DNA of 7,730 nt from JBHIBR01 sp046759145 [NCBI: Nitrospinota bacterium]. Its GTDB lineage: Bacteria; UBA8248. The stretch lies in NCBI GenBank assembly GCA_046759145.1, contig JBHIBR010000073.1, positions 1-7,730 of the forward strand, read 5' to 3'. Below, in pieces: positions 3,401 through 7,730 of the stretch. The notes below the pieces were generated by a model. That model had not been told where the DNA came from. It was given only the letters and a program-made list of their open reading frames with translations, and made no database searches. A program made the position numbers and the translations under genes. Within the stretch, counting starts at the first letter, position 1. Each line of letters starts with the position of its first letter.

Positions 3401-5446
3401 TCACGCCACCTCCACCTCGGCGGGGGCATAGCGGGCGAACTGCATGCTGAAGGTGGCCCGGCCCTGGGAGAGGCTCCTCAGCTCGGTGGAGTAGCCGAAC
3501 ATCCGGGAGAGGGGAACGCGGGCTTGGACCACCTTGCCCCCTCCCCGCTCCCCCATCCATTCCACCTTCCCCCGGCGGGCGTTCAGATCCCCCAGCACAG
3601 AGCCCAGGAACTCCTCCGGGCTCACCACTTCGACCGCCATGATGGGCTCAAGGAGTATGGCCTGGCTCTCCCGGCAGGCGGCGTCGAAGGCCCCCCCCGC
3701 GGCGATGGAGAAGGCGGCTTCGCTGGCCCGCGCCTCGTCCCAGTCCGCCTCGAGGAGGGTGACGGCGATGTCGGTCATCTCGTAACCCGCGAGCGGACCC
3801 CCCTGGGCGGAGGAACGCACCGAGCGCTCCACCGCAGCGACGAGCGCAGGGGGAAGAGCCCCCTCCGGGAGGGCGCTCTCGAACTTAACTCCCCCGCGTG
3901 GCCCCGTGGGCGCCACCCGGAGAGATAGGCGGGCGCACTGGGGCTTTCCGCCCAGCTCGCGGTCGAAGACGCCCTCCCCCCCGGCCGCCCGGATGAGGGT
4001 TTCCCTGAAAATCACCCGGGGCCTCCCCACCCGCGCCTCGACGCGGAACTCCTCGGTGAGGCGGCGGGCAAGAACGTCCAGGTGGAGCTCGCCCATGCCC
4101 GAGATGAGGGTCTGGCCCGTCTCGGGGTCTTTCCTCACCCGAAAGGTGGGGTCCTCGTCGGCGAGCTTCGTCAGACTCTCCTCCAGGCGTTTTTGGCCCG
4201 CGCTGGTGCGGGGCTCGATGGCCACCGAGATGACGGGGTGGGGAGACTGGATGGGCTCGTAGCGGATGGGATGGGCGGGGTGGCAGAGGGTGTCTCCGGT
4301 GGCAGCGCCCTTGATGCCCGTCGCGGCCACGATGGCGCCCGGGCCCACCACCTCCATCCGCTGGCGCTTGTGGGAGAACATCCGGAAGAGGCGGGCGATG
4401 CGCTCCTCCCCGCCGCGGGTTGCGTTGAGGAGGACATCTCCCGGGCGGAGCCGACCGGAGTACACGCGGAGGTAAGTGAAGCGCCGCCCCTCGTCCATCT
4501 GCACCTTGAAGACGAAGGCGGAAGTGGGCTCATCCGCCCGCACCCCGCGGGAGAGGACCTCTCCCGTATCGGGGTGGTGGCCCTCGGCGGGTGGCAGGTC
4601 CAGGGGGGAGGGGAGGAGGTCCACCACGGCATCCAGGAGCGGCTGGATCCCCTTGTTGCGCACGGCAGCCCCGCAGAGGACGGGTGCCACCCGAACCTGG
4701 AGGACCGCTCGCCTGAGCGCTTCCCGCAGCGCCGCGGCCTCGAGAGGCTTTCCCTCCAGGTAGCTCTCCATGAGGGCTTCGTCCCCCTCCGCCAGGGTTT
4801 CCACCAGCGCCTCGCGCGCTCTGCGCACGCGGGGGAGGATCTCCTCCGGAGGGTCCACCTCCACTACTGTCCCTCCCAGGTCTTCCTCCCGCCAGGTGAG
4901 AGCCCGCCCGCTGAGCACGTCCACCACGCCCAGGAACTCCTCCCCAGAACCCATGGGGAGCTGGAGGAGGAGGGGCTTCGCGGCCAGCTTCTTGCGCATC
5001 TGCTCCACTGTGCCGAAGAAGTCCGCCCCCACCCGGTCCATCTTGTTGATGAAAGCGAGGCGCGGGATATGGAACTTGTCGGCCTGCCGCCACACAGCCT
5101 CGCTCTGGGGCTCAACGCCATCCACGGCGGAGAAGATGGCGATGGCCCCGTCCAGCACCCGGAGGCTTCGCTCCACCTCGATGGTGAAGTCCACATGGCC
5201 CGGGGTGTCGATGATGCTCACTTCGTGGTCGCGCCACTGGCAGGTGATGGCGGCGGCGGTGATGCTGATGCCCCGCTCCCGCTCCTGGCTCATCCAGTCC
5301 GTGGTGGCCTGGCCCTCGTGTACCTCGCCCATGCGGTGGATGGCGCCCGTGTAGAAGAGGAACCGCTCGGTGACGGTGGTCTTGCCGGCGTCAATGTGGG
5401 AGATGATGCCGATGTTGCGGAGGCGCTGCAGCGGCGTGGCACACAT
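3401..5446 (-). CDS. fusA: Elongation factor G-like translational GTPase (divergent paralogue type)
   Basis: EF-G drives translocation of tRNA and mRNA on the ribosome and, with RRF, subunit recycling, using GTP. At 681 residues it is close to the usual ~690-700. GTPase motifs: G1 SHIDAGKTT (16-24), G2 RGISIT (58-63), G3 DTPGH (80-84), G4 NKMD (134-137). Domain II and III follow, then domain IV (from about FRET) and domain V ending in MFGYSTELRSLSQGRATFSM. Several places are unlike housekeeping EF-G. The residue before the G1 His is Ser rather than Ala/Gly. The conserved GGRGQYGHV-like stretch of domain IV reads ELGGKPQCARL. The domain IV tip reads ADWDEARASE, with Asp570 at the place of E. 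coli His583. This suggests a second EF-G (spdEFG or mtEFG2-like) rather than the rpsL-rpsG-linked fusA, and none of those partners is nearby. ATG 5446 fits the family N-terminus; no good Shine-Dalgarno precedes it. Confidence 0.9.
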   Translation of the reverse strand: MCATPLQRLRNIGIISHIDAGKTTVTERFLFYTGAIHRMGEVHEGQATTDWMSQERERGISITAAAITCQWRDHEVSIIDTPGHVDFTIEVERSLRVLDGAIAIFSAVDGVEPQSEAVWRQADKFHIPRLAFINKMDRVGADFFGTVEQMRKKLAAKPLLLQLPMGSGEEFLGVVDVLSGRALTWREEDLGGTVVEVDPPEEILPRVRRAREALVETLAEGDEALMESYLEGKPLEAAALREALRRAVLQVRVAPVLCGAAVRNKGIQPLLDAVVDLLPSPLDLPPAEGHHPDTGEVLSRGVRADEPTSAFVFKVQMDEGRRFTYLRVYSGRLRPGDVLLNATRGGEERIARLFRMFSHKRQRMEVVGPGAIVAATGIKGAATGDTLCHPAHPIRYEPIQSPHPVISVAIEPRTSAGQKRLEESLTKLADEDPTFRVRKDPETGQTLISGMGELHLDVLARRLTEEFRVEARVGRPRVIFRETLIRAAGGEGVFDRELGGKPQCARLSLRVAPTGPRGGVKFESALPEGALPPALVAAVERSVRSSAQGGPLAGYEMTDIAVTLLEADWDEARASEAAFSIAAGGAFDAACRESQAILLEPIMAVEVVSPEEFLGSVLGDLNARRGKVEWMGERGGGKVVQARVPLSRMFGYSTELRSLSQGRATFSMQFARYAPAEVEVA

Positions 5447-5448
5447 AG

Positions 5449-5476
5449 AAAAAAGCCCCCGAGGCGACGCTCCGGC
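5449..5476 (-). promoter_or_regulatory. Hairpin and T6 in the EF-G leader
   Basis: Reading leftward, CCGGAG (5470-5475) can pair with CTCGGG (5458-5463) with one mismatch across a 6-base loop. GGC and then six T (5449-5454) follow, only two bases before the ATG. The arrangement resembles a weak intrinsic terminator sitting where a Shine-Dalgarno should be. It could be an attenuator, a translation-blocking hairpin or chance in GC-rich DNA. Confidence 0.3.
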
Positions 5477-5488
5477 AGCAAATTCAAT

Positions 5489-5517
5489 CTCTTACCACGT
5501 CCGCCCCCCGCTGTCAA
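5489..5517 (-). promoter_or_regulatory. Sigma-70-like promoter for the EF-G gene
   Basis: On the - strand a perfect -35 TTGACA (5512-5517) is followed after 17 bases by TAAGAG (5489-5494) as a weak -10 (3 of 6). Transcription would begin near 5482, giving a leader of about 35 bases that consists mostly of the hairpin and T-tract described for 5449-5476. Confidence 0.4.
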
Positions 5518-5595
5518 CGCGAGGGAACCCCGCTGAGAACCACTTTAAACGCAGATTCAATGGGTTAGCAATGGGCTCGCGGGATGGTGAGGGGA

Positions 5596-5635
5596 CAAAA
5601 AAATGGGAGAAAGCGGGGGCCTCGACAGGGGCGTT
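5596..5635. repeat. Left copy of an exact 40-base direct repeat
   Basis: The 40 bases beginning CAAAAAAATGGG and ending GACAGGGGCGTT are identical, in the same orientation, to 6776-6815. The two copies bracket the nuclease and HTH genes with 1180 bases from start to start. This copy lies directly downstream of the nuclease stop codon and supplies the 3' arm and T-tract of its terminator. The repeat end is joined to GCAACG, making a 10-base palindrome CGTTGCAACG (5632-5641) at the boundary. Sequence beyond the 40 bases is unrelated to that around the right copy. Confidence 0.95.
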
Positions 5636-5654
5636 GCAACGGACCCACTCTCCC
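5597..5654 (-). terminator. Intrinsic terminator of the nuclease gene
   Basis: Reading leftward from the nuclease stop, GGGAGA (5649-5654) pairs with TCTCCC (5605-5610), then one A and seven T (5597-5603). The loop is 38 bases and GC-rich, with further pairing possible. A competing 10-base perfect inverted repeat, GGTGAGGGGA (- strand, 5651-5660) with TCCCCTCACC (5586-5595), encloses the whole structure and shares bases with the 5' arm. Confidence 0.55.
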
Positions 5655-5655
5655 C

Positions 5656-6027
5656 TCACCGATGGCGTCTTTTCCGCCATTTGCCGAATCCGGCCTTCAC
5701 AAGCTCCTCGCAGGCGTCCAACCCGTCAGTCCTCAAGATGTCGCGGAGCAGCCGCCCGAATGGCCCTCTGTTTCGGCCATCCGAGCGGATGAGGATCACT
5801 TCCGTCCCCCGGGGGAAAAGCCGCTCCATGAATTCCTTGGCGCGTTTCCCATCAAGCTCTCGCAATTCGGGCGCATCGCACGAGGCGAGCCTCACCCGCT
5901 CGGCCTGCCAACTGAAGGGGTCCACTTTCCCGGCCACGATGAGCGTATCTCCGTCAACGACGCGCAGGACCACGGCAAAGAGAACGAGGGCCAAGACGCC
6001 CCTTCGCTTGGATAGGGGGAAGAACAT
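5656..6027 (-). CDS. Staphylococcal-nuclease-like (thermonuclease family) protein, probably membrane-targeted or secreted
   Basis: This 123-residue protein is a compact SNase-domain phosphodiesterase, a family that cleaves DNA and RNA with calcium. The catalytic residues of staphylococcal nuclease can be placed by eye: VVDGDT (23-28; Asp27 = Asp21), VRLASCDAPE (45-54; Arg46 = Arg35, Asp51 = Asp40, Glu54 = Glu43) and FGR (90-92; Arg92 = Arg87). All are intact, so it should be active. The N-terminus has KRR (7-9) followed by GVLALVLFAVVL, which looks like a signal peptide or anchor, though it runs directly into the first beta strand with no clear cleavage site. ATG 6027 is the only usable start: a TAA lies three codons upstream in frame. 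No well-placed Shine-Dalgarno is seen; AAGGA lies 19 bases away. It is divergent from the HTH gene and shares its control region. Confidence 0.8.
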   Translation of the reverse strand: MFFPLSKRRGVLALVLFAVVLRVVDGDTLIVAGKVDPFSWQAERVRLASCDAPELRELDGKRAKEFMERLFPRGTEVILIRSDGRNRGPFGRLLRDILRTDGLDACEELVKAGFGKWRKRRHR

Positions 6028-6038
6028 ATTTTCTTAGC

Positions 6039-6137
6039 AGTGAATTTCCTTTTAGACAAAGTATTTCTCCTGGGCGGATACATTATCATGAAAGAGATTG
6101 CTCTTGGCGAAAAATTTTCCAAAAAGGAAAATTCACT
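6039..6137. promoter_or_regulatory. Paired inverted boxes in the nuclease/HTH divergent control region
   Basis: AGTGAATTTCCTTTT (6039-6053) and AAAAGGAAAATTCACT (6122-6137) are inverted copies differing by one inserted A. Each therefore reads AAAAGGAAA(A)TTCACT toward its own gene, ending 11 bases before the nuclease ATG and 2 bases before the HTH ATG. The right box also lies in a tighter palindrome: AATTTTCC (6113-6120), five A, GGAAAATT (6126-6133). This overlaps the HTH Shine-Dalgarno AAGGA (6124-6128). The region is far more AT-rich than its surroundings. An operator pair for the HTH protein, giving joint control and self-repression, is the natural reading but is inferred. Confidence 0.6.
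6082..6110 (-). promoter_or_regulatory. Promoter for the nuclease gene
   Basis: On the - strand TCGCCA (6105-6110, 4 of 6 to TTGACA), a 17-base spacer and GATAAT (6082-6087, 5 of 6 to TATAAT) form a plausible sigma-70 promoter. It would start near 6075 and give a leader of nearly 50 bases that includes the left inverted box. For the HTH gene the best rightward match is TTGGCG (6104-6109), 17 bases, GAAAAT (6127-6132), which would give an almost leaderless message and overlaps the palindrome. Confidence 0.45.
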
Positions 6138-6139
6138 AT

Positions 6140-6517
6140 ATGGAAATCGGCGAGCGACTGCGAATGCGTAGGCTGACGCTGGGTCTCCAGCAGAAGGTCG
6201 TGGCCGCCGACGCGGGCATTGCCATCACCCACCTGTCGGAATTTGAGCGCGGGAAAAGGGGGGTCTCCCTCGAGGTCTTGGGGCGTATCGCGGCCGTCTT
6301 GGGCTTACGCCTTGAATTCGCCGAAGCGTCAGCCGAAGGCGTCCGCGAGAGCCCTGCACCCTATGGCTTGCCCCCGAAACCGTCGAGCGCCGCCCAGCGC
6401 CGAATCCTCGATGCCACTGAGGACCCAAAGCTCCTTCGGGAGATCGAAAATCACATAAAGCGGTATCGCCTCGCCCAAGAGGCCCTGGAGCGCCGGGCCC
6501 GAAGGCGCAGGCGCTAG
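6140..6517 (+). CDS. Cro/CI (XRE) family helix-turn-helix transcriptional regulator
   Basis: This 125-residue protein begins with a five-helix HTH domain of the Cro/CI type. IGERLRMRRLTLGLQQKVVAADAGIAITHLSEFERGKRGVSLEVLGRIAAVLGLRLEF (residues 3-60) is split here for description: helix 1 at 3-14, the HTH pair at about 17-36 with the family ERGKR turn, and closing helices ending in LGLRLEF. A Pro/Ser-rich linker (about 67-84) follows, then a helical tail (EDPKLLREIENHIKRYRLAQEALERR) ending in six consecutive arginines, likely for oligomerisation or nucleic-acid contact. ATG 6140 is preceded by AAGGA at 11 bases. Upstream in-frame TTG 6098 would add residues not typical of the family. It is divergent from the nuclease and likely controls both through the inverted boxes, as controller proteins do in restriction systems; no methylase is present. 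Confidence 0.85.
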   Translation: MEIGERLRMRRLTLGLQQKVVAADAGIAITHLSEFERGKRGVSLEVLGRIAAVLGLRLEFAEASAEGVRESPAPYGLPPKPSSAAQRRILDATEDPKLLREIENHIKRYRLAQEALERRARRRRR

Positions 6518-6523
6518 TCCCCC

Positions 6524-6817
6524 ATGCCCGCTATCTTCCGCCGCAAGGGCGGGCAGGGGGAGGCCTGGCGTGGTGGCGGATCGGCGCGAGGCTTGCTCGC
6601 CGGGCCCGTCCACCTGCGCCCCGAATCCCTGCGGGCCGAGGTAGACCGCCTTTCGGCCTGGCAAACGGATATTAAACGGCAAGCGCCGGGAATCGGGGGG
6701 CAAAAGGGGGAAAGAGAAGGGAAATGGCCCCGCCCCCCACGGGCAGGGGCAGGTCCCTCAAAACCTTACGAGAAGCAAAAAAATGGGAGAAAGCGGGGGC
6801 CTCGACAGGGGCGTTAG
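6524..6817 (+). CDS. Possible small basic protein downstream of the HTH gene (uncertain)
   Basis: An open frame of 97 codons starts 6 bases after the HTH stop, so translation could be coupled. No Shine-Dalgarno is visible and no family is recognised. The middle (GPVHLRPESLRAEVDRLSAWQTDIKRQ, residues about 27-53) looks like a real amphipathic helix region; the rest is Gly/Arg/Pro-rich, as out-of-frame GC-rich DNA often is. The last 13 residues, KNGRKRGPRQGR and neighbours, are encoded by the right 40-base repeat, and the TAG lies at the repeat end. This frame runs antisense through the leftward terminator. It may equally be untranslated 3' sequence; bases 6518-6775 hold nothing else I can support. 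Confidence 0.22.
   Translation: MPAIFRRKGGQGEAWRGGGSARGLLAGPVHLRPESLRAEVDRLSAWQTDIKRQAPGIGGQKGEREGKWPRPPRAGAGPSKPYEKQKNGRKRGPRQGR
6776..6815. repeat. Right copy of the exact 40-base direct repeat
   Basis: Identical to 5596-5635 in all 40 bases and in the same orientation. Unlike the left copy, this one belongs to a complete long hairpin (6784-6850) whose other arm lies outside the repeat. That suggests the right site is the original locus and the left copy is the transferred or duplicated end. Confidence 0.95.
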
Positions 6818-6850
6818 GGGAGGAAAGCCGAGGAATCCCCGTTTCTCCCA
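6777..6850 (-). terminator. Strong intrinsic terminator for leftward transcription
   Basis: Reading leftward, TGGGAGAAA (6842-6850) and CGGGG (6837-6841) pair with CCCCG (6794-6798) and TTTCTCCCA (6784-6792): 14 pairs with one bulged base. An inner CCTCG/CGAGG stem (6829-6833 with 6800-6804) is separated by a small internal loop. Seven T (6777-6783) follow the stem directly. It is downstream of the zinc-ribbon gene, about 150 bases after its stop, and would also shield the HTH region from that transcript. Confidence 0.8.
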
Positions 6851-6873
6851 ATCTCTAGACTTCCGAGATTTTT
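6850..6873 (+). terminator. Weak intrinsic terminator downstream of the HTH gene
   Basis: AATCTC (6850-6855) pairs with GAGATT (6865-6870) across a 9-base loop, and the T-run spans 6869-6873. The stem is short and AT-rich, so efficiency may be low. It abuts the leftward terminator, so the two transcripts would end at nearly the same place. Bases 6874-6997 beyond it hold only purine-rich sequence, a TTATTCCG direct repeat and a small hairpin CTAGAA/TTCTAG (6964-6978). Confidence 0.4.
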
Positions 6874-6997
6874 AACGCCGGTGGGTGGGATTTATTCCGG
6901 GGGCTTATTCCGAAGGAGGCGAGTAGGAGGAGGCCCGGGGGGGAGGCCTTCCCTCACCGGGTTCTAGAAGGTTTCTAGCTGAGAGCCTGGGTCTCAC

Positions 6998-7207
6998 TCA
7001 CTGCGCCCGCGGGGCCGCCTCGCGGAACACCTTCACCTGGCATCGAACCACCCAAGAGGAGAGAAACTGCTCCACCTCTTCCACATAGCACCGGTCGCAC
7101 ATCCTGCCGGCCGCCGCCGTCGGCTGGCCGGGCACCGGAAGGCGCTGGTCCGAAATGGATGCCCAGACCAGCTCGCCGCAGCGAGTGCACCGGAAGAGGC
7201 TCTTCAT
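6998..7207 (-). CDS. Small zinc-ribbon-like protein
   Basis: A 69-residue protein with two cysteine pairs, CTRC (7-10) and CDRC (37-40), separated by 26 residues, the layout of a zinc ribbon that binds one zinc. Such small proteins often act as regulators or protein-protein adaptors; the specific family is not recognised. The C-terminal part after the second pair (YVEEVEQFLSSWVVRCQVKVF) looks helical then beta, with an extra Cys at 56. The start is well supported: GGGAGG lies 8 bases before ATG 7207. It sits behind a consensus sigma-54 promoter and in front of a strong terminator about 150 bases past its stop, so it is probably a single-gene transcript under activator control. It is divergent from the PLP enzyme gene, 276 bases away. 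Confidence 0.7.
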   Translation of the reverse strand: MKSLFRCTRCGELVWASISDQRLPVPGQPTAAAGRMCDRCYVEEVEQFLSSWVVRCQVKVFREAAPRAQ

Positions 7208-7254
7208 GGGGTAGACCTCCCTGCCAGAATCCAGCCCGTACGAACTTCTTCCAG

Positions 7255-7270
7255 AGCAACCTGCGTGCCA
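7255..7270 (-). promoter_or_regulatory. Sigma-54 (RpoN) promoter for the zinc-ribbon gene
   Basis: On the - strand the sequence is TGGCAC-GCAGG-TTGCT, a full match to the sigma-54 core TGGCAC-N5-TTGCW with correct GG/GC spacing. Transcription would start about 12 bases downstream of the -12 element, near 7244, leaving a leader of about 37 bases that contains the Shine-Dalgarno. Sigma-54 promoters need an enhancer-binding activator, usually bound 80-150 bases upstream. Confidence 0.7.
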
Positions 7271-7335
7271 TGGGCGAGATTCCCCGAATTCAGCCGATTC
7301 TGGCTAACCCACTGATAGTTGGCCGGAGTTCCCAT

Positions 7336-7378
7336 GACAATTTGTCTCAGAGCCCGGGGGGCCACCCGGGGCCGGGTG
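7336..7378. promoter_or_regulatory. Two palindromes, candidate activator or operator sites
   Basis: GACAA-T-TTGTC (7336-7346) is a perfect 5+1+5 palindrome. CACCCGG-GG-CCGGGTG (7363-7378) is a perfect 7+2+7 palindrome. They are centred about 97 and 127 bases upstream of the predicted sigma-54 start, the usual distance for enhancer-binding activators. They are equally 105-140 bases upstream of the PLP enzyme start, so they could serve either gene. No known binding consensus was recognised. Confidence 0.45.
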
Positions 7379-7404
7379 ACAAAAAGCCCCTAGCCGGATG
7401 CTCC

Positions 7405-7431
7405 CAAGGACAGTTGCCCTTGTGGTAAAGT
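7405..7431 (+). promoter_or_regulatory. Extended -10 promoter with overlapping inverted repeat
   Basis: TG-G-TAAAGT (7423-7431) matches the extended -10 form TGnTATAAT with 4 of 6 in the hexamer. No -35 is evident. In its place sits CAAGG (7405-7409) inverted against CCTTG (7418-7422), which could hold a regulator. The leader to GTG 7484 would be about 45 bases. Confidence 0.35.
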
Positions 7432-7483
7432 GGCCCGCGGGTATCCCGTTTTCCATCGGCAAACCTCGGGAGGAACCGACCCA

Positions 7484-7730
7484 GTGGCCCCCTCCATCCC
7501 CATCGCCGACCTGGAGCTCCCACTGCCTGCACGGGCTCTCTCCAAGGAGGACATCGAGACCCCCGCGCTCCTCGTGGACATTGCGACGATGGAGAGGAAC
7601 CTCGCGCGGATGGCCGAGTTCTTCCGGGGCACCAGGGTCCGCCTCCGCCCCCACACCAAGACCCACAAGTGCCCCCTCCTCGCCCACAAGCAGCTTGCCC
7701 TCGGCGCGACCGGAGTGTGCTGCCAGAAGG
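7484..7730 (+). CDS. PLP-dependent D-threonine aldolase / D-serine dehydratase-like enzyme, N-terminal part
   Basis: The first 82 codons are present; the window ends within the gene. The sequence matches the alanine-racemase-like N-terminal barrel of the DSD1/D-threonine aldolase family, which acts on D-amino acids such as D-threonine or D-serine using pyridoxal phosphate. Seen: the family opening DIETPALLVDIATMERNLARM (residues 23-43, shortened here to its key run TPALLVD) and RPHTKTHK (55-62), in which Lys59 is the expected PLP-binding lysine. The start is GTG 7484, with GGGAGG (7468-7473) 10 bases upstream. About 20 residues precede the family core. The exact substrate cannot be told without the C-terminal domain, which carries the metal-site residues in D-threonine aldolase and D-serine dehydratase. 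Confidence 0.83.
   Translation, partial: MAPSIPIADLELPLPARALSKEDIETPALLVDIATMERNLARMAEFFRGTRVRLRPHTKTHKCPLLAHKQLALGATGVCCQK

Follow-up and report, generated by a model that had tools for sequence, protein, structure and literature searches.

The window analysed here, that is, the whole stretch of 7,730 nucleotides, carries pyrE-like, MFS, Gfo/Idh and EF-G genes in its left part, and a small zinc-ribbon-like gene followed by the start of an aldolase-like gene in its right part. Between the EF-G and zinc-ribbon genes sits a pair of another kind, an SNase-like gene on the minus strand and an HTH gene on the plus strand, which are divergent and lie within a segment of 1.14 kb. The same 40-base sequence stands in the same orientation at both ends of this segment, so that the locus is a gene cluster bounded by direct repeats (Table 1). 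Between the HTH gene and the right repeat copy no gene could be recognised; the one ORF listed there (6524-6817, 97 aa) matched no family, and its GC content does not peak at the third codon positions. A second type of repeat lies at the far left of the window, upstream of the pyrE-like gene. It is a 39-base tandem array at about 229-354 with three near-identical copies and a diverged copy at 106-157; each tandem copy contains a hairpin-forming palindrome (CAGCGGGC..GCCCGCTG), and none of 18 phylum genomes contains the core of the 39-base unit at up to 2 mismatches.

Table 1. Features at and around the repeat-bounded gene pair (positions are those of the window; hairpins are predictions).
Feature	Position	Strand	Remarks
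EF-G gene	3401-5446		
Left arm of perfect 10-bp inverted repeat	5586-5595		Abuts outer side of left repeat copy; partner is 5651-5660
Left copy of 40-base direct repeat	5596-5635	+	Lies downstream of SNase gene; would give a minus-strand terminator hairpin its 3′ arm and U-tract (prediction)
Main 5′ arm of predicted left hairpin	5644-5655	-	Inside enclosed segment, directly after SNase stop codon
Right arm of perfect 10-bp inverted repeat	5651-5660		Inside enclosed segment; overlaps SNase stop codon
SNase-like nuclease gene	5656-6027	-	123 aa; hydrophobic N-terminal stretch before the domain, as read from sequence
Divergent intergenic region	6028-6139		112 bp; AT-rich
Imperfect inverted repeat	6039-6070 / 6106-6137		72% complementary
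Cro/CI (HTH_3) DNA-binding protein gene	6140-6517	+	125 aa; profile match
Stretch without recognisable gene	6518-6775		
Right copy of 40-base direct repeat	6776-6815	+	Supplies 3′ arm with U-tract; the predicted minus-strand terminator is strong
Loop and 5′ arm (6837-6850) of predicted right hairpin	6816-6850	-	Predicted fold
Zinc-ribbon-like gene	6998-7207	-	69 aa; family matches below threshold only

The two 40-base copies are identical, as an earlier note on this DNA had reported, and their starts are 1180 bases apart. The second-best ungapped match to the 40-mer within the window reaches 21 of 40 positions; against this background chance can be excluded as the source of the exact match. 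The identity ends abruptly on both sides. When the 100-base flanks of the two copies were compared, the left flanks scored no higher than 79 of 287 random window pairs and the right flanks no higher than 265 of 286, while the outer-left and outer-right flanks were equalled by 158 of 287 random pairs. The flanks of the copies are therefore no more similar than random pairs, and the edges of the identity are sharp.

The identities that the earlier note had given to the two enclosed genes, an SNase-like nuclease and a Cro/CI regulator, were upheld. For the nuclease the Pfam SNase profile (PF00565) gave 19.1 bits, just under its curated cut-off of 21, and the assignment is supported by other matches: PHROG 452, an endonuclease family, was matched at 1.6e-16, residues 18-116 align to solved thermonuclease chains (best E 1.1e-4), and an R, a D, an E and an R of the protein align with thermonuclease residues that we take to be the active site. 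This SNase-type nuclease is probably membrane-anchored or exported. The regulator exceeds the cut-off for HTH_3 (PF01381; 42.4 bits against 23, 7.3e-11), and its residues 1-60 match solved XRE and DdrO regulators; residues from about 90 to 125, beyond the domain, lie outside every listed family match. Both proteins have matches in phage families of a general kind (endonucleases and regulators), which falls short of proving a phage origin. Among phages, the SNase-like protein matched the endonuclease of one Bacillus phage (two records; 35% identity over 73% of the query). In viral contigs one relative of the HTH protein was found (48% over 52 residues) and no SNase relative was confirmed, and 247 plasmid records had HTH matches, all below 60% identity and 4 of them covering at least 80% of the query.

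Three functional classes were considered for the pair and set aside. With respect to a defence system, PADLOC gave general HTH models, HTH_VI being the best at 3.2e-11, and a single SNc+LTD match at 9.4e-6, which concerns the nuclease domain. A toxin-antitoxin pair was rejected as a matter of judgement, since the best NCBIfam match of the HTH protein, the Y4mF antitoxin, reaches 38.7 bits against a cut-off of 71.65 and the N-terminus of the nuclease is hydrophobic. An integron cassette was rejected as no attC core was recognisable by eye.

The divergent intergenic region has a GC content of 33%, against 67.7% for the window, in agreement with the AT-rich centre in GC-rich DNA described before. 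A near-identical inverted motif, of the AAAAGGAAA-TTCACT type and differing in length by one base, precedes both start codons (6039-6053 and 6122-6137), and at up to 3 mismatches these are its only two sites in the window. The arrangement suggests that 6028-6139 is likely a shared operator, presumably of the HTH protein. The genes of the SNase-type nuclease and of the Cro/CI-type regulator would then be read in opposite directions from a single AT-rich operator region, and both are probably under the control of the regulator. A promoter scan of 5400-7500 listed two sites, 6164-6135 and 6110-6082, where 0.2 were expected; both are on the minus strand and point toward the SNase gene, so none is listed for the HTH gene.

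The codon usage of the two genes is unlike that of their surroundings. Codon adaptation is 0.46 for the SNase gene and 0.44 for the HTH gene, versus 0.61-0.75 in the six neighbours, each of which was scored against the other five. None of 114 neighbour windows, which overlap and include one window apiece from the zinc-ribbon and aldolase-like genes, comes down to the codon adaptation of the SNase or HTH gene. The GC content at third positions behaves in the same way (0.76 and 0.75, versus 0.84-0.92). Taken with the inverted motifs shared across the intergenic region, these values support a separate ancestry of the two genes, as had been claimed when they were called unrelated to their neighbours. 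Small native genes with weak expression would likewise be expected to show low codon adaptation, and the two genes here are short and may be expressed weakly; the zinc-ribbon gene, the smallest neighbour, also has the lowest codon adaptation of the six (0.61).

Both repeat copies are predicted to close into a hairpin before the U-tract, each with a 5′ arm of its own. The right copy pairs with 6837-6850 at -35.0 kcal/mol when folded up to the U-tract; the 96-nt minus-strand stretch has a z of -5.15, with 0 of 200 shuffles as good, and a transcript of the zinc-ribbon-like gene would read into this hairpin. The prediction agrees with the earlier note, which had placed the right repeat within a complete terminator hairpin. 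The left copy had been described there as having only half of a hairpin, and this did not hold. It pairs with a different 5′ arm at -24.0 to -26.3 kcal/mol, again folded up to the U-tract, which gives a predicted hairpin that is complete but weaker. Taken with its downstream flank, the left 86-nt stretch has a z of -3.14 (2 of 200 shuffles as good), and its best fold then differs, with a 10-bp stem closing over the U-tract. Folds of the plus strand are weaker (z -2.02 and -1.77; 6 of 200 shuffles each). A simple terminator scan, which allows loops of 3-8 only, flagged neither copy; both hairpins have longer loops, and the scan found 3 sites versus 3.2 expected by chance.

How unusual the left 5′ arm is was assessed by comparison with other segments of the window. 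Among 3718 segments of 25 nt, 4.0% match its energy, 1.5% its number of pairs and 0.9% both; among 3712 segments of 35 nt the corresponding values are 16.5%, 32% and 11%. The left arm is therefore moderately unusual, to a degree that depends on the segment length permitted. For the right arm, 1.1% of segments match its energy and 9.9% its pairs at 35 nt, while at 25 nt, a length that truncates this arm, it appears ordinary (34% and 66%).

The two hairpins bear on the possibility that the window is an assembly artefact, a false join made at a 40-base sequence that two sites share, whether within a single genome or between two. Assemblers can misjoin at short exact repeats, and the window may be a metagenome record. 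However, the shared arm has a pairing partner on the inner side of the left copy and another on the outer side of the right copy, and assemblers usually end with k-mers longer than 40 bases. We consider such a misjoin improbable.

A further feature, a perfect 10-bp inverted repeat, crosses the left edge of the cluster: its first arm lies in the left flank and abuts the repeat copy, its second within the enclosed segment. In the entire window there are seven inverted pairs of 10-mers within 80 nt, and the other six all fall inside the tandem array at 229-354. A plain insertion gives no reason for host DNA and inserted DNA to match, so this inverted repeat is not predicted by insertion of that kind; it favours a common history of the left copy and the left flank.

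It is also the strongest point for a serious rival, namely that a piece of terminator was copied. Here the 40-base 3′ arm would have been duplicated or gene-converted between terminators, or would belong to an intergenic repeat family dispersed in this genome, and the two enclosed genes would be ordinary residents. Besides the inverted repeat, which links the surroundings of the left copy to the left flank, it would account for the ability of both copies to act alike, as 3′ arm and U-tract of hairpins on the same strand, and the tandem array at 229-354 provides another hairpin-forming repeat in the same window. It does not account for a codon usage that is off in exactly the two enclosed genes. 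In addition, no copy of the 40-base repeat turned up beyond the window in the collections searched: an exact 31-nt core had no match in genome_contigs and an exact 25-nt core none in viral_contigs, and a 27-nt core at up to 3 mismatches occurred in 0 of the 18 phylum genomes, which are distant relatives. In 71 fetched loci the best ungapped match to the 40-mer was 26 of 40. We regard the copying of a terminator piece as possible but doubtful.

The gene content was searched for means of movement. No recombinase was recognised among the 12 ORFs or genes scanned (8 proteins and 4 further ORFs, from a list of 46 ORFs), and to that extent the absence of a recombinase stated in the earlier note stands; within the enclosed segment, the SNase and HTH proteins, the 97-aa ORF and two overlapping ORFs gave no recombinase match. 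The families of integration and transfer genes had no match in the scanned ORFs either, the sole exception being a weak, generic resemblance of the HTH type to regulator models. Neither tRNA nor tmRNA was found in the window, and no Rfam family reached its gathering score there, so no tRNA-type attachment site is seen in it. Group IIC introns insert beside terminator hairpins, and the present locus resembles them in being tied to an intrinsic terminator. It differs from them in that no Rfam family was found at gathering score and no reverse transcriptase among the scanned proteins; moreover, a 40-base direct repeat is not an expected trace of group IIC insertion.

A cluster bounded by direct repeats and lacking a recognised recombinase may also be what is left of a larger integrative element, a cis-mobilizable remnant from which the integrase and other genes were deleted while the two attachment sites were kept. 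Remnants of this kind have been described: CIMEs, as the part of the account available to us defines them, are elements without integration and transfer genes that retain attL and attR (PMC5704250). Like them, the present locus has two direct-repeat ends and no recognised integration genes, and would rely on a recombinase in trans; the non-coding 6518-6775 could be decayed sequence. Unlike them, its candidate site is a terminator rather than a gene end, and the collections searched yielded no related ICE or IME that shares its ends. Against such an ancestor, no trace of an integrase, a relaxase or a phage structural gene was recognised in the scanned ORFs, and we hold a decayed larger element to be quite unlikely.

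A closer precedent is the H47 island of E. coli (microcin H47). According to the portions of the reports available to us, this island of 13 kb lies between direct repeats and lacks a recombinase; it was observed to excise and to integrate, also without homologous recombination, with exchange within stretches of identity (PMC3191183, PMC5426353). As in the H47 island, the genes here lie between direct repeats and no recombinase of their own is recognised. In contrast to its 13 kb, extensive imperfect repeats, microcin genes and observed excision, the present segment measures 1.14 kb, has exact 40-base repeats borne by terminators, encodes a nuclease and a regulator, and is known from sequence. 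In view of this precedent, the earlier statement that no element of this form had been described was too strong. A few keyword searches of the literature listed no paper on a small cassette whose shared end is the 3′ arm of a terminator, and the portion of PMC4729917 available to us holds nothing bearing on terminators as attachment sites.

Related genomes were searched for a filled or an empty site. The EF-G protein gave 36 loci from 58 pattern hits in genome_contigs; nine of these, from Nitrospinota-type MAGs, were taken on, and the set of 18 phylum genomes was centred on one of them. EF-G was found at E <=1e-250, with 61-63% identity, in 10 of the 18; the nine genomes selected by EF-G contain additional EF-G-like matches of lower identity. 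The zinc-ribbon protein and the 2-kb region as DNA were each found in 0 of 18. SNase-like proteins occurred in 12 and HTH-like proteins in 9 of the 18 genomes (E <=0.01; 29-43% identity), and the SNase and HTH_3 domain families each in all 18, so the gene types are not exotic. Their pairing was seen by eye at 0 of 36 SNase places in these genomes, within 5 kb and among the HTH_3 matches listed, of which the nearest lay at about 5.8 kb.

In about 70 fetched loci, queries with the MFS, Gfo/Idh, 97-aa ORF and zinc-ribbon sequences and with a piece of pyrE (in frame from 378, its start not being proven) had no match at E 1e-3, and the zinc-ribbon and aldolase-like proteins had none at E 0.01 in 71 loci; the SNase and HTH proteins matched solely loci fetched with those same queries. 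No syntenic neighbourhood was found in the EF-G loci of genome_contigs or in the 18 phylum genomes, using EF-G, SNase, HTH, zinc-ribbon, the repeat core and the 2-kb DNA. By megablast the region had no DNA match in plasmids, and no sequence with these 40-base ends was found in genome_contigs, viral_contigs or plasmids. These relatives are too remote for either an occupied or an empty site to show, and the lack of matches therefore proves little.

Taken together, the reading that we prefer, with a probability of about 0.48, is a small acquired two-gene island that is bounded by terminator pieces and has no recombinase of its own. The exact, sharp-edged repeat, the odd codon usage, the inverted motifs, the hairpins at both copies and the precedent of an island without a recombinase speak for it; the inverted repeat at the left edge, the low codon adaptation to be expected of weakly expressed native genes as well, the non-exotic gene types, the only moderately unusual left arm, the absence of both copies from the terminator scan, and the failure to find an empty site, a second island or a further copy in the collections searched speak against it. 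The gene pair would have entered a non-coding site downstream of the zinc-ribbon-like gene by recombination at the terminator 3′ arm, after which the same 40-base arm would be present at both edges. Such an insertion account is plausible. The more specific claim of the earlier note, site-specific insertion into a terminator with duplication of part of the target, is not shown: the left copy is not a half-terminator, the 10-bp inverted repeat is unpredicted by it, and no empty site, further copy or recombinase was found in the data searched.

Movement of such an island is hypothetical. In both hairpins the 5′ arm stands to the same side of the repeat; wherever within the 40 bases a crossover took place, complete terminators would therefore remain both on the chromosome and on an excised circle. 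As no recombinase is recognised in the island, its loss or movement would need an enzyme acting in trans or RecA-independent recombination between the repeats. One may go further and imagine a minimal two-gene mobile cassette, which would use a terminator 3′ arm as attachment site, bring its own matching 5′ arm, preserve a working terminator in all three states (integrated, empty, circular) and be served by a recombinase in trans; this we think unlikely.

At present the locus stands as one example of a small gene island without a recombinase, in a lineage for which no close relative was found. Many integrases use the 3′ ends of tRNA genes as comparable docking sites. If the island moves, the 3′ arm of a terminator would be a neutral docking site of this sort, at which neither the neighbouring gene nor the element would lose its stop signal.
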